Below are positions 1 through 55,443 of a DNA stretch of 64,000 bases, one piece after another. Made by a program: the position numbers and the translations under genes. The stretch lies in assembly GCA_015039365.1 (NCBI GenBank), contig WION01000066.1, forward strand, positions 141,430 through 205,429, in the 5' to 3' direction. This DNA is from Amanita rubescens. Its lineage: Eukaryota > Basidiomycota > Agaricomycetes > Agaricales > Amanitaceae. The notes beneath the pieces are model-generated. The model worked only from the letters and a program-made list of their open reading frames with translations, had not been told where the DNA came from and made no database searches. Each line of letters begins with the position of its first letter. Within the stretch, counting starts at the first letter, position 1.

Positions 1-1487
1 GGTATCAAAATCATGCTTCGGCCGGATATATGGGATGAGCTTAACGGCGCCATTGATGTGAGGTGTCAGGATGGATAGTCTTCCAACCCACCGTTCACAA
101 GGACAATCACTCGTTCCTCAAGCCACCAGGTTTCGGGTGGCCAAACCGGTTCATTTCATCAAAACTCCAGCGGCGACCACAACCCATCGGGTCCTAGTCA
201 CAATGTAGGACTCAATATGGACTGGCCTTTTCAAACTCAAGCGCCTCAAGCCATCCCAACGAATGTAGTCGACCCATCCTGCGAATTACATAAACAAGAG
301 CCGTGGCTCGAAAAAGTCATACTGGAAGACGTTTTCAGAGCAACAGCTCCCGTGCGTATTACTCATTCTCGAGCTGCCTCACCTGATTGGGCTCGTAACA
401 TCAGCTTCACCCTTCCGATCCAATTAACGTCATGCTTCTACACTTGGTGAGATATCACTCATGATTCAGAATGCGGATTAATGACCCTGTTGAAACAGAA
501 ACCAGAGGCCAGTGTAGCACTCGTGCACGACAGCGTGTGGTGTGATCAGTTGCCGCCTGTAAGCACGAGCCTTTGGTAACGGGTTGCGAGATACTTAAGT
601 CCGCTGCAGGATTTTATGGAAGACCCTCTAAATCCTAAGATCGATCGCTTACTAGAAAACGTAAAGCGTTCTTACAAGGCAATGATCGACGAGTATGGTA
701 ATGTATTTTATTATCATTTATGACCAGGATGCTTACATTTTACGCAGAGAGCGTTGTTCTAATCAAGTAAGTCTACTTTCTGGCTTTATTTTACCTGCAT
801 TTGATCTATCATACCATTAACAGCATAGAATTAGACTCAAAACCGAAGGTAAGACAAACTTTTTATTTTTGAGGCCATGGTGTCTAAAATGGAAGGTTTT
901 TATGCAGTATGACTTCGATGCCTCTCACCCCATCATTGGTTCGTTTTTACTTTTGTTCAAGTTTCAAAAGTAACAAAGATAATAGGAGGTCAGGACGACG
1001 AGGATATTTTGATGACGGAACCACCATTACGAGGCTCTTACGTAACCTCGTTGAACGACCTCCCGCAGAGTTTGCCAGCAAGAGCGCCTACAATCCCCTC
1101 CGACTGGAAAAATAAATACATCGAGACTTCAGCAGGGAGTACTCTGGTTTCTAGTGTGAGTAATCTCCGTGATGATTTTTGCTTTGTATGGATCTCAAAG
1201 GCTAGCAGGACATTGGCACATGCTATCGCACGTGGCTTAATAACCACGCCGGAATGCAAAAATTAGGAAAAGTTGAATACATCAATGAAGAGACCAAAGA
1301 AGGTAGTCAACGCACCTGGAAGTCAACTGTTCAGAGTACGTCTTCCATCCGATGAGATGAACATTTTAATAATTTTGTTTCAGTGAACGGTAAATACATG
1401 GGCTCTGGGGAGGGCTCTAAGAAAGCGGAGGCCAAAGAGATGGCTGCTAAGCAAGCCTTGGTTAGTCTAGGCGTGAATATTGAATAG
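1..1487 (+). CDS. Orphan Agaricomycete core protein fused to a C-terminal dsRBD (5' end outside window)
   Basis: Function unknown. The start lies outside the window. The first codons encode the family motif KIMLRPDIWDEL, also present in the genes at 43.4 and 55.4 kb. Following paralogue-supported introns, the core continues through LHPSDPINVMLLHL, KPEASVALVHDSVWCDQL and DFMEDPLNPK to the family segment GGQDDEDILMTE. It then splices (donor at 1156, acceptor before 1209) in frame into a complete dsRBD: WLNNHAGMQKLGKVEYI, then GSGEGSKKAEAKEMAAKQAL, ending LGVNIE at 1485-1487. The dsRBD is interrupted by an intron at 1336-1383. One in-frame TAG lies at 76-78. A GTGAGG donor at 58 and a CAG acceptor ending at 129 would remove it as a 72-nt in-frame intron, so the gene may be intact or may be a pseudogene. 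If the core is dead, an ATG at 1012 could still express a 124-residue dsRBD protein. Confidence 0.6.
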
Positions 1488-2046
1488 TTGATTCCGTACT
1501 CTTGCTTTGCCATCTTGTAAGGAACTTTTAGCACGACTGCCGCCCACGAATTCGCTGAGATTCGGGAGTTCGGCAGAAGCACAGCCACAACAGATCCCGA
1601 GCCAAATATTGACGATTGTGGAACTCGCTTTGTCCTCAAGTGTCCAACCTCTTTCCTTTTCTACAAGCCAGCCTTACTCTCTCGACGTTCCATACACTTA
1701 TACATCTTTTAACAACGTTAATTCTACTTATTTAACCTCGAAAATCCAAGCACACAACGATCCAAAACCAGGTCCCACATGCGCCTACAGCGCAAACAAA
1801 CTTGTTTGACGCACCCCACATGATCACTCGATCACCTTATCATTCTACACGTTGTACTATGATACCATATCAGGCGACGTCAAAAAAAACGTGAACAAGG
1901 AAATACCCGATGCTGAGTCCCAGGATGCGGTGTTCGCACCTCTCTGTCCATTTTGGGGGTCATGAGGATTATGGGCCGTTGAGCCGTCCCACTTGTATAA
2001 ATTCCTGCCATCGTATGCCCAGCGTTTGAACGGAAAACCAGCCGCG
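1488..2046. other. Intergenic spacer with dsRBD-gene 3' repeat
   Basis: No gene is seen. The bases around 1515-1535 (AAGGAACTTTTAGCAC) recur about 170 bases after the dsRBD gene at 7331 (near 7850), so this spacer shares 3' flanking sequence with another member of the dsRBD family. The right part is the promoter region of the next gene. Confidence 0.4.
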
Positions 2047-3804
2047 ATGGGTATGTGTCCTTTCTTTCGACCTTTTTGACTTGTGCTAAAGTGATACTCG
2101 GACGCAGTTTGGCACGCGGATAATTTGAATCTAAGGGATAGGGCGATGCAGCTTGCGTTTGATATTAGAAAATTGCAGAGGAGTGCAAGGGAGAAACTCG
2201 TACCTGTTGAACGACTTGAACAGAAGAAACAAACGGCAGATCAAGTGGATAAAGTTGTGGCGGCGAATGGAGCGAGGGATTTTCCTGACCTCCAGAGAAG
2301 GTTGTTTGGTACTCTGACGCCGCAGGAAAGAGTCATGTATGAGCGCGTAAGTGTCTTTTCATGTCAATGTTCTTGTTCTTGACGCATATATGCAGTTAGT
2401 TGAAAGACTTTTACCTATCGGTCAAACCGTAGATCCTACCCTCGATGTCTATTCTATCCTTTTCTTATTCAGTAAGTCGTCATGTCTTTTTGTACCAACC
2501 TGGTCACTTACTCGTTAATCCAGGTGGATCCATTAATAAAGGTGGCTACCTATTGTGATCGGCAGTTACACGACATTCATTAAGTTTTGTCAGCTGTCAA
2601 CGTCAGCGAAGCCCTACACATAGGTATTAGCCTCTACTTAAGCGTCTGCGATGCTTGCTTACCTCCAATTGCAGCTCACCTCGTCGCAACCATGAGAGAC
2701 TACGCAAGTCAGTTACCCCGCATCTCCACATCTAGGTCCTTGACACCTCATAGGAGCCTTTGTCATCCTGTGCAAATACGGACTCGAGGCCGGAAAATCA
2801 GCTCTCGCTCCGGCCACTCAATCCGCTAAGCTCGTCAACGGTGAGCCTCATGCTCTCAACGCCGCTCCGCTCGAGTCGTGATTCCTTTTCTTCCTAGAAA
2901 TCATCCAAAACGAAGACAAATTAGTCAAGTACGCCTCTAGAGCGGCTTGCCTTCTCAAACTAGTCGCTATCGCCGGACTTGACCCCGACCCGTGGGTTTC
3001 CAACATCTCGGTACGATGCACGCCGTCCGAAAATTATGTTTGTTCTAACAATCTGGAAAGCAAATCTCCTCAGAACAGGTTCAAAAAGAGAAGCTGAAAG
3101 TTGCCGTACACGAGTTATACTTGCGGCGACTAGCTTCTTTGGTGAGTATCTCGCGCTCCCTCCCCCCAAATTCGTGAGCTGATTTGGCACGTCAAGTTCT
3201 TTGAACGGTTATGCGACGCGATCATGGTGTGCTTCCCCCTTCTTGACAAAAGCAAGCCTTCAAGTCTTAACCCTTGCTCATGGTAGCTGCACGACGGCCT
3301 ATTACTGAACTACCTCAACCACCTCACAGGGGGACAACCGATCCACGCCAACGAGGTAACGTGCCTCTTCTTCATCCATTACTAAACATTCTGATGTACC
3401 ACACGCTAGACCGCAAACCTGTTAATGAAAGCCATGATGAACGCATGGTGCAATATTGACATTGCTACATCCGTCAATATGATAGCCGGCACGGATTCGC
3501 GCCGCGATTCGTGGACAGACGCGGATCCTGTATCGTCTGAGGCTGTTCGCCTTTTAGACGAGCTCAAGGCTCAAATCGGGATTGCGCAAGGTTCTCAGGT
3601 TCATTGTGATTTGGCGGGTGTAGTGGGGAATTTGTATTCTGAACCTGATGATGATGAGGTGAGTGACGACGGGCTTGGTTGGTTTTTTGAACAAGGTGGA
3701 CTGACTTGAACGCGCAGACGTTGCCAAAGGAAGATTACGACGTTCAGGCGCAACTACATGATATAGATAGAGTTTTTGTCAAGTTTCTTCCGTATCCTTC
3801 GTGA
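2047..3804 (+). CDS. Uncharacterised soluble protein, 13 short exons
   Basis: I do not recognise this protein. Splicing gives about 360 residues starting MVWHADNLNLRDRAMQLAFD and ending VFVKFLPYPS. All 13 exons join in frame with GT-AG introns of roughly 43-65 nt. Three are tiny: the first exon is 4 nt (ATGG), the fourth is 18 nt, and the exon encoding FFERLCDAIM is 30 nt. The sequence is charged and mostly helical, with no signal peptide or membrane segment. A conserved-looking stretch near the middle reads LLLNYLNHLTGGQPIHANE, and an acidic SEPDDDE patch lies near the C terminus. The start was chosen because the ATGG exon joins the open frame cleanly. It sits between the dsRBD fusion gene and the GFA enzyme and shows no link to either. 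Confidence 0.75.
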
Positions 3805-9089: not shown

Positions 9090-9448
9090 ATGAGCGAACA
9101 GCAGCAGCAGCAACAACAGGACCGTGAGTATCCTATATCATCGAAGCTAGCCAGATCGGCTAAGGATTTATATCCTTTGCCATAGACTATCGCATGTGGC
9201 TTAATAACCACGCCGGAAAGCAAAAATTAGGAAAAGTTGAATACATCGATGAAGAGATCAAAGAAGGTAGCCAACGCACCTGGAAGTCAACCGTTCAAAG
9301 TTCGTCTTCCATCCGATGAGATGAACATTTTAATAATTTTGTTTCAGTAAACGGTACAGACATGGGCTCTGGGGAGGGCTCTAAGAAAGCGGAGGCCAAA
9401 GAGATGGCTGCTAAGCACGCCTTGGTTAATCTAGGCGTGAATGGTTGA
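9090..9448 (+). CDS. Small single-domain dsRNA-binding protein (82 aa)
   Basis: Exons 9090-9123, 9186-9299 and 9348-9448 encode 82 residues. The N terminus is MSEQQQQQQQDH, a glutamine run, followed by a full dsRBD: RMWLNNHAGKQKLGKVEYID, KSTVQINGTDMGSGEG and SKKAEAKEMAAKHALVNLGV. The SKKAEAK cluster at the start of helix 2 is the canonical dsRNA phosphate-binding motif. Exons 2 and 3 and the intron between them are almost identical to the dsRBD tail of the fusion gene at 1209-1487, which marks a recent duplication or conversion. Its paralogue at 46420 is more diverged. No other domain is present. Confidence 0.9.
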
Positions 9449-10860
9449 TTTCGTACTCTTGCAGCGATGTGACCGATGTCGTTGCATCGGTGTTTTCTTG
9501 TGTCTCATTACCGCCTCAGTATACGCACATATATCTTGAATGAATACATTTACTTTGACGAACAGGATTCTCATTCAGGCGCATCAGTAATTATCACTCC
9601 AAGTGATTTGCCTGCAAACGAAGGTCTGAAGGCCAGAGAATGCCTTCACCGACAAGAGACACGCATAGATAAAGTTGGGACGTATCAGTCGGATCGCCAG
9701 CTTTTTGGAGATGCCGTAAGAACGAGCCCGAGTTTATTGCAACTTGAAGCTTTACGTTTGTCCAGTTGAGTGATTCATAAAAGCATCGATGACGCTTAGG
9801 TAGGGCAACCATTGTGAGAAGTCGTGAGCTGGAAGAAAGGGTATACTACCTACTGACAGAGCTTAGAGTAAGCAAAGGAATGACCGTGTTGAGAAGAGTC
9901 GGTGATGCGCATCACACTATCATCGAACCTGCCATAAACTTCGAACTGCCGCTTGCAAGCTTATCATGTTCGCTGGTCCCTTGTTTTCCAAAGCTACATA
10001 TTCAGTTGGCGCATATGCTGGGACCGGTGCGATTGATGTCACATCGTGACGCCTTACTTGACCGGCCCGATCCGGGACCCAAAAAAATCCATTTTGATTA
10101 GCTGTGGTTAATTAACACGCATAACATATCGTTATCAGCGGACTGCCAAGCATTGCAACCTGAAGAGGTAGGTGGTCTATCCAGTGCGGCCACCCACTCA
10201 TTGCAAGATCCGAAAAACCCCACAGAGCACCGGCCCGGGAGGCGGGAATGTGATGTGCAAGCTTCGGGTTGTGTAGCTATGAATGATAACCGACAGAGAA
10301 GGCTGATACATACCACCTCGGATACAATTTGGGGTTTCTCCGCCAAATTGCTGTGTCGTATCATAAGAAATGTGAATCTTTTATATGGCGCCCCCGTCGC
10401 TCTTTCCCGATATATGTACGGCGCATCGAGGTCCAATCAAACACTGCTATGGACAAAATGACGAAATCTATATACAACTTATCAGAAGTGACTCGGACGC
10501 CGATGATCATGGCCTCGATGACTTGACTGGACCGGATCCACGAAGTACCGACCTCGGAATTCCACAGGGCTTGCACTGTTGAGTTCGACGCTCCCAAACA
10601 GGTCCGGAATATCTCGATTTCCTGCTGTTATTCACCTCTATAGCATGATTTATTGCGAATCAATTTTTTTTCCTGTATTGGACACGGGACGTAAAATTCA
10701 TTCTTACCCGATCCTTCACTGCAGAAAAATCACGACTGTAAGTTGCTATAATATGATGTATCGAAAATTCTAATGCTGTAGCATGGTCAGGTTATATAGC
10801 TCGCAAATTGGTAGCAGGAATGTTCAGAACACCAAGAGAAACCCCAGAACGTCAAGATAA
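9449..10860. repeat. Duplicated ~1.4-kb spacer (left copy) upstream of dsRBD gene
   Basis: The spacer matches 46777-48057 over most of its length. Shared landmarks include GTGTCTCATTAC near 9503, GAATGCCTTCA(C/G)CGACAAGAG near 9638, GGATACAATTTGGGGTTTC near 10320 and the promoter block at 10741-10800. A shorter third copy is at 45560-46419. No open reading frame in it is conserved among the copies, so I take it as non-coding. Confidence 0.6.
10741..10800 (+). promoter_or_regulatory. Conserved dsRBD-gene promoter block
   Basis: TGCTATAATATG, then CGAAAATTC, AATGCTGTAGCATGG and a TATA-like GTTATATAGC, ending about 60 bases before the ATG at 10861. The same 60-nt block lies before the genes at 46420 and 48058. 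Confidence 0.5.
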
Positions 10861-13280: not shown

Positions 13281-13638
13281 ACGAGTGCCCAACAGCAACC
13301 GACGTAGAACCGTAAGCGTCCTATATTCTAAACGGTTTTACATGGTCGCTGTCCTTTTCCCGTAGATTATCGCCGATCCGCATGTGGCTGAATAACTACG
13401 TCAGAAAGCATCAATTAGGCGTGGCCGTATACATTGATAAAGAGATTACAGAAGGTGGCAAATACGTCTGGACATCAACCGTTCAAAGTATGTCTTCCAT
13501 TCGATGAGCTGAATAACGAAATAACAATGATTAGTAAACGGTACGGACAAGGGTTATGGGGAGGGCTCTAAGAAAGCAGATGCTCGGGATAAGGCTGCGA
13601 AGCAAGCCTTGGCTAATCTACTTTGCGTGAATGGTTGA
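13281..13638 (+). pseudogene. dsRBD gene of the MSEQ subtype, degraded 5' part
   Basis: Homologous to the gene at 9090, with the same exon-intron layout. The start codon reads ACG (13281), exon 1 contains a TAG four codons before its end region, and exon 2 carries an 8-nt insertion next to TATCGC that breaks the frame. From an internal ATG at 13382 the frame is open to the stop at 13636-13638 and spells an almost complete dsRBD: MWLNNYVRKHQLGV, VWTSTVQINGTDKGYGEG and SKKADARDKAAKQALANL. Either it is a pseudogene or it is expressed as a protein lacking the first turn of helix 1. The preserved second half suggests a recent break. Confidence 0.75.
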
Positions 13639-26332: not shown

Positions 26333-26678
26333 ATGGACAATACACAAAGTGAGTGATCCTCTTTCTCAGGCTTTCCGGGCCTGACAAGCGATTCAAGCAT
26401 GGCGAACCGTCTTGCACAACCGCTGCAGGAATCGTGCTAGACCCACCTATTCCCAGAAATCATACCAAGGCCCAGATCATAATCCCGTCTATACGTTTGA
26501 TGTTCAAAGTAGGCCCTATACCCATTGACTTGAGGACGACGCTGAAAACTTGACTTTGTCAGTAAATGGAACAACTTGGGGAACAGGAATTGGCCGTAGT
26601 ATGGCGTCGGCAATGGATGCAGCAGCACGAAAAGCTTTAGAGTTCGGAGAGCGAACAGGGGCCTTTGACAAGCTTTGA
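26333..26678 (+). CDS. Small single-domain dsRNA-binding protein (83 aa), divergent
   Basis: Exons 26333-26348, 26389-26508 and 26563-26678 give 83 residues. The domain reads AWRTVLHNRCRNRARPTYSQ, PDHNPVYTFDVQINGTTWGT and GIGRSMASAMDAAARKALEF. Intron phases and positions equal those of the other members; the first intron is only 40 nt. The helix-2 start has GRSMASAM in place of the usual KKxAK, so the main phosphate-binding lysines are missing and RNA binding is doubtful; it may instead mediate protein contacts, as degenerate dsRBDs often do. It is alone here, away from the 7-13 kb array, and has its own TATA box. Confidence 0.82.
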
Positions 26679-40691: not shown

Positions 40692-43444
40692 TCAACGAAC
40701 ATCCGATTGAGAGGTTGGTTTGCAATTTTTGCGTTTCAAGTGCCTGCGTAACGCGCGCTTTCCGTGGAATGATTTTAAGCATATCGCACATTCGAGTTTC
40801 CGGTGGATTAGCGGGTCTTTCATGTGACGTCGCAGGTCCCTCTCCTTTTTAAAATACCTGCGACAGTCAACGCACTCTGGCCGGGTTTTGCGCGGGGTCA
40901 ATGCCATTACATTGTTGCCAGAAGTCATGGAGCCATGCTCGTCATTTTGCACTGGAGGCATACCAGACCATACCGGCTATAGGGATTAGCTTGTTGTCAC
41001 GTCAAACCAGAGGCCTTTGGGAGGTCACTTACATCAAAGCCTACCAGGTTAAATGGGGGTGGTTTTGTAGCGTCAGCCATAAGACTGTCCTCGTCATTTT
41101 GACCCGCCATGATGACATCACCCTCTGAGAGCCAGAAACTATCCGGAGACGAACTGATGACAAGGGCAGCGGTATGAAGCTCATGCTGCGCGAAAGTTTT
41201 CCAATTTAAGCTCTTTAACCTGAGATGAAAAATTACATCTTACTTGCGGTTTTGAGTCTAACTGTACGCTGTTATGGTAGATCAAAGCAGGAAAAAGAGC
41301 ACCGGGGGACAGATTTACTTCACTAGAACCACGCTGCCTATACAAATAATAAATATTCCGAAACTTACAACAAAATATACCAGATCCGTCACCATAAATA
41401 TCAGTCATTGCCTTGTACGACCGCCTCACGTTCTCTAACAAGCCATAGATGTTAGGATTTATAGGGTCGTCCATAAAATCCTCCAGCAGACTCAGTTTCT
41501 TGTTCATTAGGCAGGACGGTACGTGCTTACATCTGGTAACTGATCACACCATACATTGTCATGCACGAGAGCTACACTGGCCTCCGGTTTCTGTTTTGAT
41601 AAGGTCACAACTCCGCAATGAAAATAACAAGTAAATCCCACCAGGTGCAAAAGCATGACATTGATTGGATCGGAAGGATGGAGCTAATATAATGAGTTCA
41701 ACCAAATGAAGGAGCTCGAGCATAATATAGACGATACGTACGGGGACTGTTTCTTTGAATTCTTCCTTCAGTATAACTTGTCCGAGCCATGACCCTGGTC
41801 TATGTGGGTTCCCAAATGCCTCGGTCACCTTCGTTGTGATCGGTTGGAGTGCCACCGTATTACTATCGCTGCTCGGACTTTGATGGAGCAAATAGGTTTG
41901 GCTACTCTCCATCTTGTGCGTCCGAGAACGAGTTGTTGTCCGTGTGGATGGCGGAGGGGGGGACACTCCATCCTGGCATGTGACATCAATGGCATTTAAC
42001 TTGTCCCAAATGTCCGGTCGAAGCATGATTTTAAAGCCGCGCAAAAAAACACACTGATTCGGCTCATCATCGTCGAGGAGAACTATATCCTTTGGTTTCG
42101 GTCCTACTCTTGCATCTGTCTTGCCCCGATATTTCCATTGACACGTTTCTGAGTCGAAAATAGCGCGATGGTCATTATTGGCTACCGCATTCCCATAGAA
42201 GACCGCAATGCCCCAGTTCTTGGACTTGGTGCACTCCGTAACAAAATAAAGAGATCCGTTGGAGACATCCCTGCCGCCTTCGTTCAACGCATACTCGTAC
42301 CAACTGGCGGCACAACGAGCGGCCTGCCTCCCTAACTGACGGATATTCCTTGCTTCATAGACAGTGGCACCTGTAGGCAGAGCGAGAATGGCTCCTTTGG
42401 TTGAACATTGAAAAGCAGAAGACCTAGATACGCTCCTGAAAATGGCCCGTACACCATAATGTGTAATACGTACGAATCATGGTCGTCAATTTCACTGACA
42501 TGGGTACTGTGCAAACATATACCAGGATCGAACTCGTCTCTATCTCTCTTGACCGCATTGAACAACTGAAAGCCGTCAGGAAGTATGAATGGATTAACAC
42601 CGGCATCTGACGGATCATTGTGTTTGCAAGCGTTGAATAGAAAGTCGAAAGCACCGTTTGCGGTTATTATACCGACGTCTCCGACTCTTACTCCTTTCTT
42701 CCGATATCCGGCCGAGAGACCTCGGGATGGCGTGGGCATGTAGAGGGGGTAACCTGCCCCGTGAATCATCATCTCGAGGGAATAGACGTGACTACGGGTA
42801 TGGGCCCTGTATGAATATGCTTTCTGCACAATATGTAGGATGATCAAGCGAAAGGCTGAATCGATCACTTACCGAGCTACTCGCCTCTGATTCGAATGCA
42901 TTGTCGGGCTAAAACAATGTGTAACGCGAAATATAAGGTCACGAAATAACGGAAGACAAACATCAGGAGGTGTAGGGACGGGCGCTTGTGGTAGTCAGAT
43001 AGATAGAAGCAAAAAAGGACAAGGTACAGACTCGGTTGTCGAGCAACTGTAACCATAGGCTCTCCGCTACCGGACCCACTATTACCCTGGGCGGCGGATG
43101 TTTCTGGATGTTGACTCTGTTCATTAGACTCTGCGATCATATGATGATGGCGACAATGCCAGCCAGCATATCAGCAAATGTGGCCTCTGATAATTGACAT
43201 CGTCAGACAGACCTTGAGCACCCCCCTGGTCAATATGTGATACACTCGATATCAAACGTTCCAGTACGACTACAACGCCGGCATTGATGTGGTTTTCTGA
43301 TATATTCAACTTGTTATTGTCGCCCATGTCGAACATTGGGCAGTTGCTGACAATAAAATCTTTGGCATTATGCCACCAGTTGCGGCGCGTTTGGGCTTCT
43401 GCGGAGTCTGTTGAATGCTTCGCGCCGCTGTTGGAGTTTGACAT
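40692..43444 (-). CDS. Orphan core-family protein with C-terminal C2H2/C2HC zinc fingers
   Basis: Member of the same family as the left-edge gene. N terminus: RRNWWHNAKDF, DMGDNNKLNISENHINAGVV. Core: MMIHGAGYPLYMPTPSRGLS, GDVGIITANGAFDFLFNA, GAILALPTGATVYEAR, SWYEYALNEGGRDVSNGSLY, FVTECTKSKNWGIAVFY and GFKIMLRPDIWDKL. Every exon junction agrees with the copy at 55.4 kb. The core runs in frame (with a 30-nt intron at 41125-41154) into MAGQNDEDSLMADATKPP, and a 56-nt intron (40977-41032) leads to a different tail: CVDCRRYFKKERDLRRHMKD, ending in H, and CAICLKSFHGKRALRRHLKR followed by NC, i.e. one C2H2 and one C2HC finger. The tail suggests DNA or RNA binding. If the tail exon is separate, the ATG at 41111 would start a 120-residue finger protein. 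Confidence 0.72.
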
Positions 43445-43745
43445 ATGACGAAGACTTGTATAGTGATGTTAAGCCAAGGTGCACGAGGTTGGAGCATGCC
43501 AGGGCGATGTCAAGTTCCACATTTGGCTCGGATGAGCGTCTATTTCATGGGAACTTATTCCTAACCTGGAACTTATTTATTTACGGTTTGGCATTGTTCA
43601 TTTTATTTCCGTGATCGGTCATTTTGCGATTCAACACCGTATGATGGGGCACATACACTATCAAGACATCGTCGTAGTTACATGGCAGGAGAAAAACTCG
43701 AGTTACCAGTGACGCGCCAGTCGTAACGCGTGCCTCGGATGCCGT
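43445..43745. other. Spacer upstream of the core-family gene
   Basis: Presumed promoter region; no gene seen. Confidence 0.3.
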
Positions 43746-44531
43746 TCAAACATAATAATCGACTTTTGCCAACCAGCCACGAAATACAAATTTCATAGAT
43801 GATGGGCCTCTGTAGATCCTTGAGTTATCACCAACGATTCCATCGGAGGATGAAGATACCAAGGATGTTGAAGTCGACGAGTTCACGTTATCGGTAACGT
43901 CAGCCCTAGAATAACATTAGGACTAAGGAAAGATGGTGTAATAATGGAATAAACATACGTGTAGATGGCATAGTCGAAGTTGACGTAGGTCATGTTCGGC
44001 GCTCCGCTCGTCGAGATCACAAATTCGTGCTGAGAATTGCTTAAACCGCTACCGCTAAACACGATAGCATTGTATTGAATATCCTGAACAGCTTCACCAT
44101 CATTAGGCTGGTAAGAAAAAGCGCCCATGTGATTGCCATCGATGGTAAAACTGCACTCTGTGCTCGTCGGAACACTGAGTATATCACCCATGAAGAATAC
44201 CCAGATGGAAACGCCTGTGAAGGTTGGTAGGTATTCAAATCATGCAAAGTTGGGGAACCGCAAGCAGGGAGAGAAAGATTCGAACCTGTGAAAGAGAACG
44301 TGATGTTCATGTTCTTAGTGCTTGAACCATATACCGCAGCCGTCCATGCGTGGTCCTAGGCCAAGGACGTGGTTGGCTGAACGAAACATCGAGTCTCATT
44401 GCAGCTCGGACCAAACCAAATGTCGCTGAGCTAGTGGACCGGTTTTTGGCCCAGCCGAGAGGTCGCCATAAGTCGATGCTTCTGTTGACAAGGGCCGCCT
44501 GAGTCGCGCAGACAAGAAGGAGAATGATCAA
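43746..44531 (-). pseudogene. Relic of a secreted/TM protein family (ALVNR family)
   Basis: The N terminus MIILLLVCATQAALVNRSID is a signal peptide followed by the LVNR start of a common Agaricomycete membrane-protein family. The next part is in another frame (YGDLSAGPKTGP), and the segment after it (WFGPSCNETRCFVQPTT) runs into an in-frame TAG before DHAWTAAVYGSSTKN. The downstream exons are intact: MNITFSFTGVSIWVFFMGD, STECSFTIDGNHMGAFSY, HEFVISTSGAPNMTYV and FDYAIYT, with a donor near 43960. The family usually ends with a TM helix and a DEPPPxY tail; neither is found here. I read it as a frameshifted pseudogene. Confidence 0.6.
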
Positions 44532-44939
44532 ATCCTGAACGGCTCGTCTGACCGACGTGTATCGTGGTGGAAGTTAATGTCGCGAGCGCTGAGGGAGTTG
44601 AACAATCGCATAATGTAACTTGTCAAAGCGGAGACCAAAAGAGAATTGACTAAACTGGGCGACCGTTGATACTCAAGCGAAGTTTCCCGCCCGGCCGCAG
44701 GCAGATACGGTACCTATAAGGGAGCGCGTGCGACAACAGGATAGAATACGTGCTTTACCAGAGACGTTGACGTAATGGGCGATCGGGGGAAGACGCTGGT
44801 GCTGCGGACTGACTAGTACTGACTTCCTGAGCGATGTGGAAACACATAAAATTTATGAGGCAAGGTTCAAGCGGGCCGCTGCCGCTCGTCTATTGCGTCG
44901 GAGTTTCAACTTCATCCTTTTCCATTATTCTTTCACCGT

Positions 44940-45175
44940 ATGTCTGAACGCCAGACTCATCCTCTGCCATACCGAGCACGGTGAATTCAAAGAGTTACTT
45001 GCCGCCTAGCCTGTGATTCGACCTAAAGATGGGAAGAAGAAGACGCCAAAACCGAGACGCGCAAGAATCCCGAGGACTCTGATGGAATTGATCTGCTGGC
45101 ACCTGCTAAACTGAAGCAAGAACCATCGACGGTACGTTCATTACCCCTTTATGAACGACAGATGGCGATCTATTA
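44940..45175 (+). pseudogene. Decayed fragment of the HMG-box gene
   Basis: From TCATCCTCTGCCATACC near 44955 the sequence follows the 3' half of the HMG gene exon 2 (38965-39185): GAATTCAAAGA, GATGGGAAGAA(G/A)AAGACGCCAA, GA(T)GGAAT(C)GAT, CTGAAGCAAGA(G/A)CC(A/G)TCGA, and even the donor and first intron bases (GGTACGTT). A TAG interrupts it (GCCTAGCC near 45008), and neither HMG box nor start is present. It is a truncated duplicate. Confidence 0.7.
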
Positions 45176-45559
45176 TATTTCAGCACTTTCTCAATAATGA
45201 TATACACGAGGGAAATGTTTATTAGGTCGCCAGTCACCGGTCATAACTAGTAACTAGTCGTTAATCAAGTGATTTCAGAAATGGCTCTCCCGTTCCGACC
45301 TTAAATTAGCATTGATCGAGTCAAGGCTTTATGTCGGAACAGTCAAGATCGCCTGCCTACCATCTGATCGTGCTGCCTTTCCCTTTGCCAGCAGTCTTGT
45401 ATTAACTTATGGTGCTTAACAGTGAAACTTCCAGTTGAGGTGGACGGGCCCCCCAACATACCAACTTCATGATTTGTATTTCCTTCACACTAGCAGAAGA
45501 CCTCGTCATAAATCTGCATTCCATGTGCAGTCTAGTTAGGGCTCCAAAACATATTAAGC
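45176..45559. other. Spacer without a supported gene
   Basis: No coding sequence or repeat recognised. Confidence 0.3.
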
Positions 45560-46419
45560 CAAAATGGCCAGTGATTCAGGTCACACCGTGACCCGTCGTT
45601 TTTTCCTACTTGCAATCCCGACTCGGGACAAAAACCATTTTGATTAGCACGCATATTATTGATAACATGTCAGCGGACCGTCAAACACTGTTGTAACGTG
45701 AAGAGGTAGGTGGTCTATCTCCCTATAGCTGTACATATATAATGCGGCCACCTAAATCCAAAAAACTCCAATCTAGGCATTGAATGTTCCAACAGGAAAC
45801 AGTTGGACCGAGCACCGGAATGTGATGTGCAAGCTTCAGGTGTGTAGCTATGAATGATGACGGACGAGGAAGACTGAGACACATATCACCTCGGATACAA
45901 TTTGGGGTTTCGCTACCAAATTGCTGTATCGTAGAAATGTGAACCTTTTCTCGGCACCCCCGTCGCTCTTTCCCACTATGGAAGCCATTTTACATCGCGT
46001 TGAGGTCCAATCAAACACTGCTATTGATCAGATGACGAAATCTATACACAACCTGTCAGGAGTGACTTGGACGCCGATGATCATGACCTCGATGACTTGA
46101 CTGGACGGGATCCACGAAGTACCTACATAAGTTGGAATCAATCTTACCGACCTCGGGATTCTAGGGCTTGTATTCAATGAGTTCGACGCTCCCAAATAGG
46201 TTTGGAATATCTCGATTTCCTAGGCAATGCCGTTATTCGCCGCTATGCATGATCTGTCTGGGAATCAATTATTTCTTTCCTTCCTCGACTCTTCACTGCG
46301 GTGAAATTACGACTGTAAGCTGCTATAATATGGTGTATTGAAAATTCGAATGCTGTGGCATGGCCAGGTTATAAAGCTTGCAAACTGGCAGCCGGAATGT
46401 CCAGATCACCAAGAGCAAT
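45560..46419. repeat. Duplicated spacer (third copy) upstream of dsRBD gene
   Basis: Matches 47160-48057 and 10030-10860 over its length (GATTCAGGTCACACCGTGAC, GGATACAATTTGGGGTTTC, GGTCCAATCAAACACTGCTA). It ends with the same promoter block, 46321-46380, including TTATAAAG at 46369-46376. Here it precedes an MSEQ-type gene; elsewhere it precedes MSS-type genes. Confidence 0.6.
46321..46380 (+). promoter_or_regulatory. Conserved dsRBD-gene promoter block
   Basis: TGCTATAATATGGTGTATTG, GAAAATTCGAATGCTGT, GCATGGCCAGGTTATAAAG; TATA-like element 44 bases before the ATG at 46420. Confidence 0.55.
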
Positions 46420-46776
46420 ATGAGCGAACAGCAACAAGCGAAGAAGCCCGGTAAGTATCCTATATCCTATAAGATAGCCAGGATCGGTTAAGTATTTATA
46501 TCCCTTACCGTAGACTATCGCATGTGGCTTAATAACTACGCCGGAAGGCATAAATTAGGAACAGTTGAATACGTCGATGAAGAGATCAAGGAAGGTAGTC
46601 AACGCATCTGGAAGTCAACTGTCCAGAGTACGTCTTCCATTCTGTAAGATGATCATTTTAGTAATGTTGTTTTAGTAAACGGCACAGATGTGGGCTCCGG
46701 TGAGAGCTCTAAGAAAGCAGAGGCCAAAGAGATGGCTGCCAAGAAGGCCTTGGTTAATCTAGGAGTGTACTTGTAG
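46420..46776 (+). CDS. Small single-domain dsRNA-binding protein (81 aa)
   Basis: Exons 46420-46450, 46514-46627 and 46676-46776 encode 81 residues: MSEQQQAKKPD, RMWLNNYAGRHKLGTVEYVD, WKSTVQINGTDVGSGESS and KKAEAKEMAAKKALVNLGVY. It is the partner of the 9090 gene in the long-range duplication, with the same 3' flank (CTCATTACTGCCTCAG). Its upstream region, however, is that of the MSS subtype, so promoter and coding region were recombined. The KKAEAK RNA-contact cluster is intact. Confidence 0.9.
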
Positions 46777-48057
46777 CGATGTGGTCATATCGGCGTTTTC
46801 TTGTGTCTCATTACTGCCTCAGTATACGCGCATATATCTTGAATGAATACGTATACTTCTTGGAAAATTCTAACTGTGACCATATTAAACGACACGATTC
46901 AGCCTCATTCTAATTATCGTCTGAAGACTGGAGAATGCCTTCAGCGACAAGAGTCATGCATAGATAAAGTTTGGGCGTATCAGTCGGAGTGCCAGCTTAT
47001 AAGCAACCTTTTTGAGATTCCTTAAGAACGAGCCTGAGTTTATTGCAAGCTTTATAACTTGGAGTAAGTTCGGCCCGAGCTTGACAGGCATTTCCCGATG
47101 CGTGACGCCCGAGTTTTTCAAAGCTTACATATTCAGTTGGCGGGGACTCTAGATGACGTTGGCCACGAACCACACTGTGGTGCGATGATTCAGGTCACAC
47201 CGTGACGCATCCTTGCCAAGCCCGATTCGGGACAAGAAAGTCCATTACGCTATTGACGACATATCAGCGGGCCGTCAAGCATTGTAACCTGAAGAGGCAG
47301 GTGGCTCTATCTCCCTATGACTTTGCGGCCACCCACTGATTTCAAGATCCGAAAAATAGGCATTGAATGGTCCAACAGGAAATAGTTGGACCGAGCACCA
47401 GAATGTGATGCGCAAGCTTCAGGTGTGTAGCTATGAATTATGACTGACAGAGAAGGCTGATTAGTACGTATAACCTCGGATACAATTTGGGGTTTCCCCG
47501 CCAAATTGCTGTATCCGATGTCATAAGAAATGTGAACCTTTTTTGCAGCATCGGGCCCGTCGCTCTTCCCATAATGGGAACTATTTTACGTCGCGTTGAG
47601 GTCCAATCAAACACTGCTATCGAGAGGATGACGAGATATATATACAATCTATCAGAGGTGACTTGGACGCCGATGATCATCACCTCGGTGACTTGACTGG
47701 ACGGGATCGACAAAGTACCAAAGTTGGAAACAATCTTACCGATCTTGGAATTATAGGGCTTGTATTGTTGTCCGATGCTCCAAAATAGGTTTGGAACATC
47801 TCGATTTCCTTGGCGGTGCTGTTATTCACCGCTATAGCATGGTATATCGGGGGATCAATTATTTCTTTCCTGTATTGGATACGGGAGGTGAAATTCATTC
47901 TTCCTCGATCGTTCACTGCAGCGAAATCACGACTGTAAGCTGCTATAATATGGTGTATCGAAAATTCGAATGCTGTAGCATGGCCAGGTTATAAAGCTCG
48001 CAAATTGGTAGCCGGAATGTTCAGAACACCAAGAGAAACCCCAGAACATCAAGAGAA
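46777..48057. repeat. Duplicated ~1.3-kb spacer (right copy) upstream of dsRBD gene
   Basis: Counterpart of 9449-10860 with the same order of landmarks, ending in the promoter block 47941-48000 (TTATAAAG at 47989). Open frames differ among copies, so it is probably non-coding. Confidence 0.6.
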
Positions 48058-48386
48058 ATGAGCTCAACGTCGAACAGTAAGGCATCCCAACTCGTCTTCA
48101 CAGACGACGAGCTAAACCATCGTTTACACAGCGTACCGTCGCATGCTTCACGACTGGACCCGTAAGATGCACATGAAAACACCAGAATATGAGGACAAGT
48201 GGAACGGAAAGGAGTGGACGTCCACTGTCAAAAGTAAGTACACCAGCGTAAATTAACTGCCTGCAGTGAATTGACCATGCACCAGTCGATGGCACTTCTG
48301 AAGGCGAAGGAACGGGCAATGATAAGAAGGCTGCTCAGGAGAATGCCGCCAAAGCCGCGTTGCGAAGGCGTGGACTCGTCCAGTAG
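48058..48386 (+). CDS. Small single-domain dsRNA-binding protein (73 aa)
   Basis: Exons 48058-48076, 48132-48233 and 48286-48386 give 73 residues: MSSTSNT, YRRMLHDWTRKMHMKTPEYE, WTSTVKIDGTSEGEGTG and NDKKAAQENAAKAALRRRGL. Very close to the 10861 gene (same exon phases; most differences in exon 1 and the last helix). This copy also settles the exon-2 acceptor for the subtype, because only one AG is available here. Confidence 0.88.
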
Positions 48387-48592
48387 AGAATATGGCACCA
48401 CCTTCGGTGTAATCCTCCGCTCCCCTAGCGACCTATAGCTTTAGTTTATGCACGAGATGTTATTTGAATATATTGATCTTATATCTGTTTATCATTGCTA
48501 CTGAAGAGAACGTGAAACACATTTATTAATTATAAAATACAAACGGAACGAGCGGCGTACATCTAAACAAATATAGAGTATGCAAAAAACGT

Positions 48593-48802
48593 TCATGACA
48601 CTAAATCATATGCAGGCGGCGGTTCATCGGATAACCCTAGTGCCCAATCTGATGAGAGCTGCAATTGCAAGTGCTCAGTCTCGGAGTTGGGAGCTTGAAG
48701 TCTTTCTAAGCTTTGTCCAAGTTCATTGAACAAACGATCAAGCTTTCCGCTCCGAGTAACACGTGTCCAACTGGACTGCATTCGTTTGCGTAATTCATGA
48801 CG
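48593..48802 (-). pseudogene. C-terminal exon relic of a DDEPPP-tail membrane family
   Basis: An open exon after a T-rich acceptor reads RMQSSWTRVTRSGKLDRLF, then QLQLSSDWALGLSDEPPPAY and a stop. The DWAxGLSDEPPPxY ending is the common C terminus of an Agaricomycete TM family. No matching TM or extracellular exons are found upstream, so this looks like a 3' remnant next to the P450 gene. Confidence 0.4.
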
Positions 48803-48925
48803 ATCGACATTGCTAAAAAAACAGTAGTCATTGAGTGCATAACATCTAATCTATGTAATAAACATTGGTCGTCAAAATAATGTAAATAGGTTTGACCAAT
48901 AGACGAGTAAATGCGAGATTCAAAG

Positions 48926-50793
48926 TCAATCACGTCGCTTAATGCCAAGTCGGCAAGCGACCAGCTTCCTTAAAAATCCCTCCCATATTTCGACCTAAGC
49001 GTGACAGGTTAGGCACAAACTCCTCGATTTCTGGGGAACACTAACCTGTTCATCAGGTCGCTCAAGAACAAAGCTATACCGGCGGAAAAGCGAAGCAGCG
49101 ACAATGCGCATCTCCATCATGGCTAGATTGCGACCCACACAAGCCCTAAATCAAACGGTCAGAAAAATGGACGCAGCTTAGCGAACAAGAGCCTGCTCAC
49201 CTTGGACCGACAGAAAAGGTGTTGAGCGTCTTCTGCATAGCACTCTGGTCACGCTCGAACCACCGTTCGGGTCGGAAAACTTCGACATCTTCGCCCCAGA
49301 CATTGACATCACGATGGATAGTGTAGCTGGGCACGCTAAGAATGGTACCTTCGGCGAAGTGTTGACCTGACACTGTCAAGCCGCCCTTTGGAGCAACGCG
49401 GGGAAGGCCAATGCCAGAGGTGGTGTGGACACGTAGAGCTTCGTTGACGCAAGCGTCTAGATAAGGAAGGAGTTTGACCTGATCAGCGGGTGCGACAACA
49501 TCATCTTCCGCTCCAAGGTGGTCGTCCAATTCCTTTTGAAGTTTCGCCTGGACGCGGGGATTGCTGGCAATGTGATAGATAATAGCGGTAATTGAGCTAG
49601 GAAAGCGTAAGTATAGGTGCAGCATATTACTGTTTGAAGTTACTTTGCACTGCTATCCGAGCCGGCAATTAGGAAAGTTTGAGCTTCAGCTGTGAGTTCT
49701 TCCGCGCCCAAAGGCTTGCCTTCGTCGTCGCGACCGTTCTGCAGTTTGCTGAGCAAATCGTTACGATCGGTGGGGTTTGCCAATCGTTTCGCAACAGCCA
49801 TGATAGATATGCCAGCCAAGTACCGAACACAGTCGGTTCCAAATCGGTATCCAGGAAGTTTGCTCACGATCGGCCTCCAAGAGGCAGGCAGCACACCTAT
49901 ACACATCGAAAAGTCACCACGGCCATTCAGGATCTCAACAGCGGGAATGCCGATGACGTCCGAATTTATTTCCTGTTTGCCGTAGGAATTCATAAGGGCT
50001 TGTTGGCTGCCATGGTGTTTTGGGGCCATGGCGACATCTTTACCGGATTCTAACATTCCAAATGGAGCTCCGAATGACAGGTCCCCGATGATGTCAAACG
50101 CCAGATAGTTCACCCCTACGACGGCTCTTGTATCAGTTATGTGAACCATGTGTCATGAAACCAGAGCTTACACGGCAAGACATTCAGATAGAGTCGTCCG
50201 TCTCTACCTTCCCATCCACCTTCTCCATCGTTTCCGGACATGCCTTTGAGAGCGAGGTCGTGGAATTGATCCCATCGCTTGATGAGTTGAAGAACATGAC
50301 GCTTGAGGTGGGGCTCAAACTCAAGAACATTCTTTTGGGAGAAAATGTGCGAAATAATCTTGCGTTTACGTGTATGCTCGGGGCGATCACGGGTGTTGAA
50401 TACGCCGCGTCTTATAGAGACGAAAGCATCATAAAAGTCGGATTTCAAAGCACCGTTTCCGTGACCGTAGATGGAGTTCAGGGCCTCTGGGTCGGCGACG
50501 GAGATGTGGTTGGGAGCAATGCGAACGATGGGGCCTGTTCCGCAACCAAGTTAGCGAGCTAGATAACATATCGAAAAGGGATACACACCATATTTTTGGT
50601 GGGCTTTGTGGACGCTGTCAGAGCGATGTCCCATCTTGCTAACATAGCCTAACCAGAGATGCGAAAACTTTGCGAGGAAGGGGCCCGGATGGCCTTTTAC
50701 ACCACAAGGGTCTACGAGCCACGGAATAAAGTGGGCGAGGAGACCGATAGCGGGGATTGCGAGAGCTACAGTGTAGTAATTGATAGAAGACAT
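48926..50793 (-). CDS. CYP53-type cytochrome P450 (benzoate 4-monooxygenase-like)
   Basis: ER-anchored P450 with strong similarity to fungal benzoate para-hydroxylases (CYP53), which convert benzoate to 4-hydroxybenzoate. N-terminal membrane helix TVALAIPAIGLLAHFIPWLV, then HPGPFLAKFSHLWLGYVSKM, SDFYDAFVSIRRGVFNTRDR, HTRKRKIISHIFSQKNV, VNYLAFDIIGDLSFGAPFGM, I-helix FLIAGSDSSA, K-helix CVNEALRVH (ExxR), FRPERWF and the haem loop FSVGPRACVGRNLAMMEMR, with the splice between GPR and ACVG. The C terminus EGFLRKLVACRLGIKRRD needs the acceptor AG upstream of VEIW. Products could feed the beta-ketoadipate route in a wood- or litter-associated fungus. Confidence 0.88.
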
Positions 50794-52241
50794 CTTGCAA
50801 GGAACTGAGGAGACATTGAGCAGCGGGATTTGCTGGTTTATGTACTGCGTTGCTGAGGCCAGTGGTCATAATGGACATTGTTGACAACGTTGATGTTACC
50901 ATCGCAGCATCAGTAACCGTGACCGCAAATCTCCCAATGTGGCTGTGAATAAAACCATTTTCCGCACTTTCGCACTGTCGTTCTGACAGAATCTGACCGG
51001 AAATATGTGGTCTTCTCCCACAATCGGAAATACTGAGGTGTGGCAACATGTTTGGCGGTGGCGCACATTACTCAGTCCACGACGGTGACAGAACGAGGCC
51101 AAGATGAAATTGTCACGCCGTCACGAAATATCACGTCCTCATTTCCTTTCCAGGTATTCCTTTCCTTTTTGGCGGCAGCGCACATCCGAATTTCTCATCA
51201 CTCATTCCAGCAAATAGAAGTTGCCTGGTGCGTAAAAGTACACCTATCTCAGCCATTTGTTTACATATATCCACGACAGAGCGCCTCATCCCAGATACTG
51301 GTGCATATGTCGTCGTCGTACGGTTGTGCCAGAGTGAGGTGCATGAATCTGCAACCTTACGTTTCTTGCTCGTTTTAGGTGTCGGTAACTTGACAAGTAT
51401 CAACCCCCCTGCAGGCGATGCTGGCGTGAGTAACCATTAGACTTTTTCGTCCTTCTTTACAGTGCCACCCGTCACTCAGGGATAGGTACGTTGTTTTGGG
51501 CTTTGTCAGTGGTGACCTGATCACGTCCGCTCCTCTCGTCTCCTCATGCATATGATCACTGTCCATATAAGATGACTTGATCCCCACGGGGCCACCGGTA
51601 ATGGTAAGCAAATTTCGTTACCGATAAAGATCTGCACCTCGGTTTTCTATTTCCATCTGTCCCTTGTCACCCTGTAACTTGCTTAATAACCTCTCGCTTA
51701 CGCCCCAATAGGCAACCCGATCGGTGGATTAGCCTTTCCCAGTGCGTTTGGTCAACTCGAACAAACGCATGAGCGCCAGATAGTAGGCACCGTTTCATCA
51801 CCACTATCATCGCGAACGCAAGCTTAACAAGTGCTCTGCAGAGCTTTGTATCGGAGTTCCGGCCTGTTAGTGGGACTCCCTTTCATGTATGGCGGCCTTG
51901 GAAACACCGCAAGTTCTTCCGCTGCGCAACTGAGTAGGGTAATGATCGATTACTGGGTCTCATTGCGACATCTTTGAACCCGAATGATGGTCATAGGGTT
52001 TCACGTTCGTCCACCCTCGCAGCTCGTGGTTCGCTATGGCATGACCATTGTAAATTATTTATCCTTTTTTATATTATTAAGATTACGTCAATACAGCTGC
52101 ACCGTTGGTTTTTGGGGCTTTATGACTTCCTCTTCATCTTCATCGTCGACCCCCTGAATTGACTCGTCTGATTCACTTTGAATTCGAAAGTGGGAATAGG
52201 GTGAGATCTGTTCCAAGAACGCCTACCTGTGCGGTCTTTTT
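50794..52241. other. Spacer without a supported gene
   Basis: Contains the CYP53 promoter on the left. At 52120-52200 (minus strand) an acidic stretch encoding ESDESIQGVDDEDEEE lies just beyond the stop of the next gene and may be its former tail. Confidence 0.35.
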
Positions 52242-55200
52242 TCACAGACCTTTCGCAGGTGCTTTCCGGGTGGGTACCTTCGCAGCGGCCTTTGTGGCTG
52301 TCTTCCTTCCGATCCCAAAGCCTCGAAATGTGGAACCGTCGCTGGAATCGTCGACAACTTCGATGTCCATCATCGAGTCGTCCGACTGACAAGCAGCTTC
52401 ATCATCTTTGTTCCGAACCTTTCCCTGATGGAGCGTCAGTCCAAAAGGTTCCGAATTGAATGATGTTATCACCTTATCCCCAGTCGACTTTTCCTTTGCC
52501 CTCTCTACGTAGTCTTTCTCGTGTTGCTCTTTCGCTTGCAAAAGCTGTCACAGTTATGCATCGTACATATCGGCTTGAAAGTATACTATACCATGTCATT
52601 CAAACTGTGTTCATCGACGTCACCTTCTATTGTCTTTCCCCTGACGTCTTCCATAAGATAATCAAGCGCTTTCGTAACGTGCCTGTACAAAATTAAGCGC
52701 GTGGTAGTCCCGGGCGGTCATTAGACTGCCTCACGTTTCAATTGCATGCGTGTCGTCTTTGTCGACGAACATTTGAATCGCGTCAGATATTCCACGCTCA
52801 CCCAAGATCTGCAGTTCTTGAGTGGAAATGTATTCCTTTAAAAGGTCAATGGGTTGACGTTGAGGTTTAGCTTTCCGGTCATCGAGGGTTTCGGGTTCAG
52901 ACCCTTGTGAACGCGACATATAGACATCATTCATCTGTGAGAACTCAGGACGTCATCCCGAGGATATAGAGGACGTCACTAACGTTGAAACTTGATTGGT
53001 TCGATAACGATCTTTCGATAGCGTCGGACATAACAGTGTCATCGTCATTCTGACCTGCCATCCGTACTGTCACTTTTCGGAGCTAGAAGGAATGATGAAG
53101 ACGAACTGAGAATCGAGGAATATGCAGGAAGGTCATCCTGCGCAAAGGCTCCCTTTTCAGACTATGACTTTGGATGAGAAACTTCATATTACCGACGCTT
53201 TTGAGTCTAATTCCATGCTTTTAGAGTGTAGGATAGATTAAAATGTTTGTTTAAGCAGGCAGGCATTGGGGCAGACTCACTCCACGAGCACTGCGTTCCC
53301 TATATTACGTATAAATGGCTTTATAAGGAATGATATAAGGAAAAGGTTCCGTTACCATGCTGACCAACCACCGCCTTATACGCTTGCTTTACGTTCTCTA
53401 ATAAGCCGTAAACGTTAGGGCTGACAGGGTCTGCCATAAAATCCTGCAGCAGAGTCAGGTTTGCTGCTCGTTTCCCAGAGAGCAGGTGCCTACGTGTGGT
53501 AAATGATCACACCATACGCTATCATGAACGAGGGCAACGGTGGCTTCTGGTTTCTATTTAGATTAGCGCTAAATTCCGATACTTGAATCGTGAGTCAAAT
53601 CTTACCAGGTGCAAAAGCATCGCATTAATCAGATCAGATGGATGAAGCTGGTGTAACGTGTTCAACAAAGTAAAGGAACTCGGGGCTGAATGATGCGCAC
53701 GGGAACGGCTTCTCGGAAGTTGTCCTCTAGTATGACTTGTCCAAGAGACAACGGGTGATTGTTGGATGTTTCGACTACCTTCCTTGGGATGGCTTGAGGC
53801 ATGGGCATGTGTATGAGCTGGTTTGCGTCAAGTCTCGCATTGTGAGGTGAGTTATGACTGTCGCTCGTGCTTTGATGTAAATTGGCTTGGCTAGTACCCG
53901 ACATATCGTGAGTTTGAAAATGGGTGGTTCTCGTTGGGAAAGGCGCGGAGGAAGACTCTCCATCACGAGTTGTTACACCGATGCTGCTCTTTAGCTTATC
54001 CCATACGTCGGGTCGAAGCATTATTTTAAAACCGCGCAGGAAGACACATTGATTTGGTTCATCATCATCGGAGAGGACTATATCCTTTGATTTCGGCCCT
54101 ACTCTTGCCTCCACCTTGCCCCGGCGGCCCCATTGACACGATCCTTCATTGAAAATAACGCGCAAGTCATCGCTGGCGGTCGTGCGCCCATAGAAGACCG
54201 CAATGCCCCAGCTCTTGGACTTGATACACTCCGTAACGAAATAAAGGGATCCGTTGGAGACGTCCCTGCCTTCTTTCAATACATACTCGTACCAACTTGC
54301 GGCGTGGCGAGCTGCATGCGTCTCGAAATGAAGGGTATTCACTGCTTCATAGAGAGTGGCACCTGTGGGCAGAGCAAGAACGGCTCCTTCTGAAGCTGAA
54401 CATTGAAATGTATGCCTAGAAATGTTCTGGTAAACGGCCTTCACACAATTGGATTGGTCATACTTACGATTCTGAATCACAAACTTCGTTCACATGTTCG
54501 CTGGGAAGACATTCACCGTGATCGAACTGATCGTTAACTCTGACAACCGCCTTGAGCAACTCGAAGCCATCAGGAAGCGCGGCCGGATGAACACCTGCGT
54601 CTGATTTGCAAGCATTGAATAGAAAGTCGAAGGCGCCATTTGGAGTTATCATGCCAACATCTCCTATACGTATTCCTTTCTTCCGGTATGCAGCCGGAAG
54701 ACCTCTGTATGGCGTCGGCATGTAGAGTGGGTAACCCGCCCCATGCGTCATCATCTCGAGAGAGTATATGTGAGTTCTGGCACGAGAAGCGCATGGATAT
54801 GCTTTCTGAACGGTATGTCAAGAAACGACGAAGAGAAGGGCTATGAATAGCTTTCTCACAGGCCTATTTATAAGAATGTCGGGGTCCGCGTAATCAGCGG
54901 TTGCTTCCGGGTCGAACGCATTGTCGAGCTAAAACACCTTATTATTCTAAAAGTAAAATCGCGAAAGGGTGCAACATACATCAGGAGATGATGTGGAAAG
55001 GTCATTATTCTTCTCTAGGGTTCATTATCAAATACATCAAAGCAATAGATGAGAGGGTACGAACTCAGTGATTGAAGTGTAATCGGCGGCTCTTCATTTC
55101 TAGGCCTGGCATCGTCCTGGGCGACAGGTATTTCGGGCCCGCGACTCTGCTCATCGGCCTCTGATGACACATTCAACCAGTATGTCAATAAATGTAGTAT

Positions 55201-55443
55201 CCGATAATGGATACCGTCAAACGGACCTTGGAAATGCCCCAAGTTGTCAACACCCGATAGGCTCGTTATGACTACAACGCCGGCGTTGATGTGGTTCTCG
55301 GAGATGTTCAACCTGGCATTGTCGCCCATATCGTACATCCCGCAGTTGTTAATGAGGAAATCCTTGGCTTTTTGCAACCAATTGCGGCGCGTTTGGATCA
55401 CGCTGGAGTCTGCAGAAGGCTTCACGTCGCCGTTGTTGGGCAT
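52242..55443 (-). CDS. Orphan core-family protein with MRE11 C-terminal tail
   Basis: Third member of the orphan family. N terminus RRNWLQKAKDFLINNCGMYD and MGDNARLNISENHINAGVVV; core HGAGYPLYMPTPYRGLPAAY, GDVGMITPNGAFDFLFNACK, GAVLALPTGATLYEAVN, SWYEYVLKEGRDVSNGSLYF, VTECIKSKSWGIAVFYG and GFKIMLRPDVWDKL. A 34-nt intron (53073-53106) joins it in frame to MAGQNDDDTVMSDAIERSL, and an intron at 52935-52983 leads to a tail not shared with the other copies: LLKEYISTQELQILGERGIS, DAIQMFVDKDDTHAIETHVT, KALDYLMEDVRGKTIEGDV, then a charged region ending TATKAAAKVPTRKAPAKGL. This matches the C-terminal part of fungal MRE11, without its nuclease domain. Function unknown; an exon-shuffled DNA-repair module or a read-through into an MRE11 pseudogene are both possible. 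Confidence 0.68.

Follow-up and report, generated by a model that had tools for sequence, protein, structure and literature searches.

In a 64,000-nt stretch of the Amanita rubescens genome (hereafter the window, the whole stretch analysed: C608:141430-205429, in a 75.7-Mb assembly of 786 contigs) lies part of a cluster of genes that share a core; we call its members copies A, B, C and D, and labels such as C608, C246 and C640 denote contigs, so that A246 is copy A on C246. At a probability of roughly 0.55, we favor a reading in which one conserved core is spliced in frame to varied C-terminal domains (tails), the tails are exchanged through a linker, and the products are intracellular scaffolds whose target is set by the tail. 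The strongest evidence for exchange comes from comparing contigs: at the copy A locus, unrelated double-stranded RNA-binding domains (dsRBDs) stand beside a nearly identical 3' flank. Such alternative tails suggest a mix-and-match system, likely one for recognition or defence.

Alternative tails at the copy A locus

Parts of the cluster are repeated on contigs C136, C352, C209, C640, C491, C518, C246 and C598. C518 and C608 are 100% identical across 4366 bases, so the contigs are not all independent haplotypes. When C608 is aligned with C246 at copy A, 80 of 2084 aligned bases differ in the core (29 gap columns), 73 of 335 in the linker (22 gap columns) and 3 of 471 in the 3' flank. Both tails are dsRBDs (that of C246 matches with E 7.1e-5, or 3.4e-6 within the full protein), and they are unrelated, with a best local match of 39% over 36 aa. 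C608 and C640 carry the same tail (0 of 457 bases differ) and almost the same core (1 of 2110), yet their linkers differ at 48 of 347 bases plus 6 gap columns (Fisher p 9e-45 for linker versus core plus tail). A sharply delimited tract of the linker has been replaced here (Table 1). The C640 linker has no identical counterpart among 14 further family copies, the best being 87% (C246), and it is therefore not a chimera of those copies.

The order of the D core, the A core and three dsRBD places is the same on C608 and C246; the second and third dsRBDs are ~4 kb apart on C608 and ~10 kb apart on C246, with other spacing similar, and one more dsRBD match is present on C246, at 37.2 kb. At the D locus, too, the tails of these two contigs fail to align. 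We infer that the C246 and C608 versions of A are alleles, and tail exchange through recombination in the linker is well supported. The synonymous divergence of the A core (0.119) exceeds the difference in the flank; a diverged core beside a near-identical flank fits either old allelic lineages or conversion from unsampled copies, as expected for both. The first-pass annotation had proposed exchangeable ends on a common scaffold, a proposal supported by the alternative tails at A and by stand-alone dsRBD tail genes in the window (Table 1).

Copy B (13 exons, 697 aa, modelled with GT-AG introns and no break in the frame between ATG and stop) also varies between contigs. B608 and B136 are 97–100% identical in core windows from 43450 to 41300, 82–100% identical from 41250 to 40550, and again 97–100% identical in the next five windows. 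In the linker and tail they differ by 28 changes in 160 codons and by one in-frame codon, and the same stop is reached; the cysteines and histidines of the B136 finger are retained (spacing one residue shorter) despite 21 nonsynonymous changes in this region. Three B copies hold the frame across core and tail. A separate patch of 76–91% identity between C608 and C352, at window 41850-42100, sits in low-complexity sequence that follows the second core block, within a B core that is otherwise 94–100% identical (windows from 43450 on).

In the mechanism we propose, the mini-exon linker would guide tail exchange by homologous recombination or gene conversion. The core protein would act as an intracellular scaffold, and its tail, serving as a bait or binding module, would bind or mimic the target; tail swaps may then be under selection for new specificity.

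The linker and the core-tail junction

The first eleven intron phases are identical in A, B and C (1,1,0,0,2,0,0,0,1,2,0), in agreement with the core motifs and exon phases described for them at first pass. Mini-exon 10 is 19 nt long and mini-exon 11 is 25 nt long in A, B and C and in the core copies on C1 and C146 (boundaries set by hand). The copy on C715 retains the 19-nt mini-exon, and that on C72 retains an exon-11-like stretch matching C1 at 18 of 25 positions, a score that none of 300 shuffles equalled. The graft point follows mini-exon 10 in C715 and mini-exon 11 in C1, C146 and C72; in the three window copies A, B and C it falls within exon 13 or beyond it. Measured from the start of exon 9, similarity ends after 92–494 nt in 27 of 28 pairs (B and C146 give no match), although in distant pairs this end may reflect divergence and not a graft.

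The varying graft exons and pairwise similarity ends rule out a single fixed breakpoint for the whole family. The common breakpoint proposed for the three window copies holds to the extent that their similarity fades at nearly one point, within or shortly behind the exon with the GQxDxD motif, but its position varies across the family. Likewise, the donor context said to be shared can be confirmed for B (41032) and C (52983), whereas A (about 1050) has no more than a similar sequence.

Could the core gene instead end in the linker, the tails being separate small genes or fragments just downstream? We consider this unlikely. With at most five GT-AG introns of 44–66 nt allowed, a stop-free path leads from exon 9 into the tail frame in all eight modelled genes, compared with 22–45 of 100 mononucleotide shuffles of the same stretches per gene (product about 1e-4). 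The test is permissive, which favors separate genes: under looser settings 72 of 100 shuffles of C1 reach the tail frame, and only in B, C and C146 is the tail frame the sole one reachable, all three frames being open in the other five genes, so the test is weak gene by gene. Conservation is better evidence for fusion. In A640, all 14 GT-AG introns and the frame survive the 48 linker substitutions, which speaks against a gene that stops short of its tail. Separate genes would also be compatible with splicing that is here predicted from DNA, with the ATG that opens the C tail exon, and with the existence of stand-alone dsRBD genes. However, the copy A model omits the ATG exon of those genes and has a 53-nt intron before its tail, and the C tail picks up MRE11 only towards the end of its DNA-binding domain.

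DNA similarity between the A tail and the stand-alone dsRBD genes starts at about the start of the dsRBD exon. In and around the cluster these genes form an expanded family in their own right, two of them consisting of an ATG exon of 10–11 residues and one dsRBD. A further dsRBD match at window 26403-26642 (Pfam, six frames) has a TGA inside.

Core, tails and known recognition systems

The three tails first described (a dsRBD in A, a C2H2 and C2HC finger pair in B and the MRE11 C terminus in C) all agree with Pfam or PDB matches, and the family is larger than it first appeared. A query of 268 core residues gives 75 exon-level matches in the same genome at E 0.001 or better, which we grouped manually into 39 places, haplotig repeats counted in. 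Core copies elsewhere have an F-box tail (C715, E 1e-8), an ankyrin tail (C146, E 3.9e-23), a Zn2Cys6 tail (C72, E 3.7e-7 after intron removal) and an MMR_HSR1 P-loop GTPase tail (C1, 22.1 bits with a cut-off of 21.9); a putative C2H2 finger tail is present on C440 (E 3.2e-6). Most tails examined are binding-type domains. With F-box, ankyrin, Zn2Cys6 and GTPase tails among them, the tail set is not only nucleic-acid-related, and we reject the earlier suggestion of nucleic-acid sensing as the shared function. Further cores, on C363 (103k), C61 and C271, have a Tle1-like hydrolase domain 2–4 kb downstream on the same strand, associated by proximity only. Between core and Tle1-like domain, C61 (L069) contains tandem repeats of ~245 bases and C363 (L052) a related repeat motif. 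Ankyrin matches lie ~3.3 kb downstream of the C363:131k core, in a genome where ankyrins are very common.

Copy C (16 exons, 799 aa, modelled like B with GT-AG introns and an unbroken frame) ends in the last part of the MRE11 DNA-binding domain, the RAD50-binding segment and the C terminus. Residues 31-110 of this tail match residues 9-86 of PDB 5da9 chain C (E 3.9e-6), which is the MRE11 helix-loop-helix bound to RAD50 (PMC7407228). We predict from the sequence that this tail binds RAD50, as the corresponding part of MRE11 does. A separate MRE11 gene lies at C1:940182-941368 (DNA-binding domain and C-terminal part, the two regions searched). The C tail is 60–79% identical to pieces of it, and two of the match boundaries coincide with C tail introns.

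This coincidence would suit a transposon-borne capture, in which the core belongs to a mobile element of Helitron or Pack type that collects host exons; so would the many core copies across many contigs and an imperfect 21-nt inverted pair (81%) closely around B, at 40651 and 43559. Yet no pair like that of B surrounds C, no inverted pair of at least 60 nt surrounds B or C within the window (Helitron ends were not searched), the core is under purifying selection, and copies occur in the same order on several contigs. We regard such capture as highly improbable.

A more elaborate version of tail exchange seems to us possible at best, and we put it forward tentatively: the mini-exon linker might let a constant core take up new C-terminal baits as copies of host sequences (those of stand-alone dsRBD mini-genes, of MRE11, and of F-box, Zn2Cys6, GTPase and ankyrin genes), giving idiomorph-like tail haplotypes, with the MRE11 tail as an integrated decoy for an attacker of the MRE11-RAD50 complex. 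An MRE11-type tail leads to a concrete prediction: it should bind host RAD50, and an as yet unseen attacker of DNA repair may exist.

The core itself is under purifying selection. By the Nei-Gojobori method, the core has a ratio of nonsynonymous to synonymous substitution rates (dN/dS) of 0.16 when A608 is compared with A246, and ratios of 0.29–0.31 among the paralogues A246, B and C. Pfam finds nothing above cut-off in the B core, nor outside the tails in C and A246, and in a PDB search with full C only the MRE11 part matches. A protein search with core exon 6 (151-aa query) found 49 homologues, one labelled Amanita brunnescens; it retrieves proteins of about 83–264 aa only, and tails in other species are thus not visible in it.

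Several observations weigh against the scaffold reading. Every core-tail fusion is a splice prediction. Among the proteins tested no effector domain was found, and AlphaFold2 gave no usable fold for core exon 6 (mean predicted local distance difference test score, pLDDT, 45.6, with an alignment of 41 sequences: 39 of the 49 exon 6 homologues plus two window exons), which leaves the scaffold function without direct support. The match of the C tail to PF04152 is under the curated cut-off both for the tail alone (E 1.3e-3) and for the full protein (E 0.021), and copy C shows no tail variation between C608 and either C136 or C209, so exchange is not universal. The tails of D are poorly defined, with a weak DUF6593-like match on C608 and C13 (E 0.037) and, on C246 and C598, a finger-like tail with no C2H2 match over the cut-off. 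Copy A, placed at 1-1487 by the first-pass annotation, does have core and tail there, but its 15 exons start at window −1429 (on C608, left of the window) and an in-frame TAG at 76-78 interrupts it. In copy B, the dN/dS of linker and tail is 0.84 (28 changes), which fits diversifying selection or merely relaxed constraint, and B352 has an identical tail and a mosaic patch in the core, so that patches are not confined to the linker.

The stop in A, the patch in B352 and the ratio in the B linker and tail are also what one would cite for neutral birth-and-death. In that case the genes of a tandem family, often subject to gene conversion, would pick up nearby gene fragments, many of them decaying, and the tails would have no selected role. 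The stop is present in three of the four contigs with this tail (C608, C518 and C491, the last with two extra bases close to the end of the tail, possibly a sequencing error), and on C598 copy A is interrupted before its tail by a reverse-transcriptase element (RVT_2, E 3e-8; L054 7274-8871), which we take to be of the Copia type. Decay does not account well for several tails that hold whole domains in intact frames, for the two distinct and intact dsRBDs at the A locus (A640 is intact at 728 aa, and A246, with its different tail, at 693 aa), or for the finger residues kept in B136, and we judge a purely neutral history rather unlikely.

If the favored reading of exchangeable tails on a scaffold is right, the family would by analogy have a role in defence or nonself recognition, and it invites comparison with known systems. 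Fungal NLRs have variable or integrated C-terminal domains in a Sordariales survey (PMC12258605), and het-E, D, R and Z are NLR examples in which the C-terminal part sets allele specificity (as cited in PMC10890737). The core family resembles them in its constant part with a variable C-terminal recognition part, its ankyrin and zinc-finger ends and its clusters; the C146 copy has a C-terminal repeat domain as they do, other copies having single non-repeat domains. Unlike in NLRs, the constant part is N-terminal and each tail is a single domain, with grafts drawn from unrelated families. Nor does Pfam match a NACHT, NB-ARC or AAA domain, whether in the B core (searched to E 10) or in full C and A246 (searched to E 1). 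Like het-B (Bh) of Podospora anserina, in which the more variable C-terminal domain sets specificity (PMC10890737), the family has what are probably allelic forms. No HET domain was found in Pfam scans of the B core, full C and A246, however, and the C-terminal domain of het-B is a diverged single fold, whereas here unrelated sequences swap.

The same logic is seen in effectors that are exported to other cells and act through their tails. Crinklers (CRN) combine a conserved N-terminal part, a recombination point and diverse C-terminal domains (PMC5289972), and the C-terminal diversity of bacterial polymorphic toxins arises by recombination with stand-alone cassettes (PMC3482391). It is very unlikely that the core family works in this way. 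No hydrophobic N-terminal stretch is present in any of four models (top 12-residue hydropathy there at most 0.9, with no dedicated predictor run), a reading by eye of the A, B and C translations shows neither the LXLFLAK nor the HVLVXXP motif, and the tails are mainly binding modules and not toxins. Unlike in CRN, most tails are not enzyme-like and exchange runs through an intron-rich linker; unlike polymorphic toxins, the family is eukaryotic and intron-containing, and no toxin or immunity gene was recognised (immunity genes were not searched). Among the NLR, HET and Crinkler classes tested, the core family thus has the defining domain or motif of none.

Fungal recognition genes in the literature we surveyed are mainly ascomycete NLR and HET families. 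The present family has a core without a known domain, joined to C-terminal modules that are unrelated to one another; the zone of exchange is visible, stand-alone relatives of one tail lie nearby, and contigs show alternative tails at one locus. We found no earlier description of a core with such tails in literature searches, several of which were narrow and which did not cover subscription papers. Domain grafting could be studied in this family between haplotypes instead of between species.

Features and neighbours in the window

Table 1. Positions of core-family parts and related dsRBD genes, in window coordinates.
Feature	Positions	Strand	Remarks
Copy A core, exons 6 (part)-9	1-351, 405-446, 499-558, 610-697	+	exons 1-5 left of window
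Copy A linker, exons 10-13	748-766 (19 nt), 824-848 (25 nt), 908-938, 986-1155	+	GQxDxD in exon 13
Copy A replaced tract in linker	687..1024	+	holds the 48 substitutions and 6 gap columns of C608 vs C640
Copy A tail, dsRBD exons	1209-1335, 1384-1487	+	PF00035 E 3.2e-9
Copy A 3' flank	1600..2070	+	3/471 bases differ in C246 and in C640, though C246 tail unrelated
Copy B core, exons 1-5	43444-43213, 43130-43032, 42984-42962, 42908-42873, 42823-42474	-	
Copy B core, exons 6-9	42423-41742, 41683-41642, 41590-41531, 41480-41393	-	core span 41393..43444
Copy B linker, exons 10-12	41337-41319 (19 nt), 41268-41244 (25 nt), 41185-41033 (GQxDxD)	-	
Copy B tail, finger pair (C2H2 and C2HC-like)	40692..40976	-	PF12171 E 2.9e-9, two stretches
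Copy C core, exons 1-5	55443-55227, 55160-55065, 55014-54980, 54928-54860, 54805-54468	-	
Copy C core, exons 6-9	54415-53701, 53647-53606, 53553-53494, 53443-53356	-	core span 53356..55443
Copy C linker, exons 10-13	53299-53281 (19 nt), 53217-53193 (25 nt), 53137-53107, 53054-52984	-	
Copy C tail, MRE11 fragment exons	52934-52735, 52682-52592, 52544-52242	-	
Stand-alone dsRBD mini-gene, own ATG exon	9090..9449	+	87% identical to copy A tail over 69 aa
Stand-alone dsRBD mini-gene, own ATG exon	46420..46776	+	76% identical to copy A tail over 68 aa
Further stand-alone dsRBD copy, more diverged	13379..13638	+	

Near the dsRBD genes, window 10396-12722 and 45774-48376 contain blocks that are repeated within and between both parts at 62–91% identity. 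Of the neighbouring reading frames, 15196-16692 is presumably F-box/LRR-type-like and 19744-21170 FAD-linked oxidase-like; we take 38225-39181 to be HMG-box protein-like and 49197-50865 to be cytochrome P450-like.

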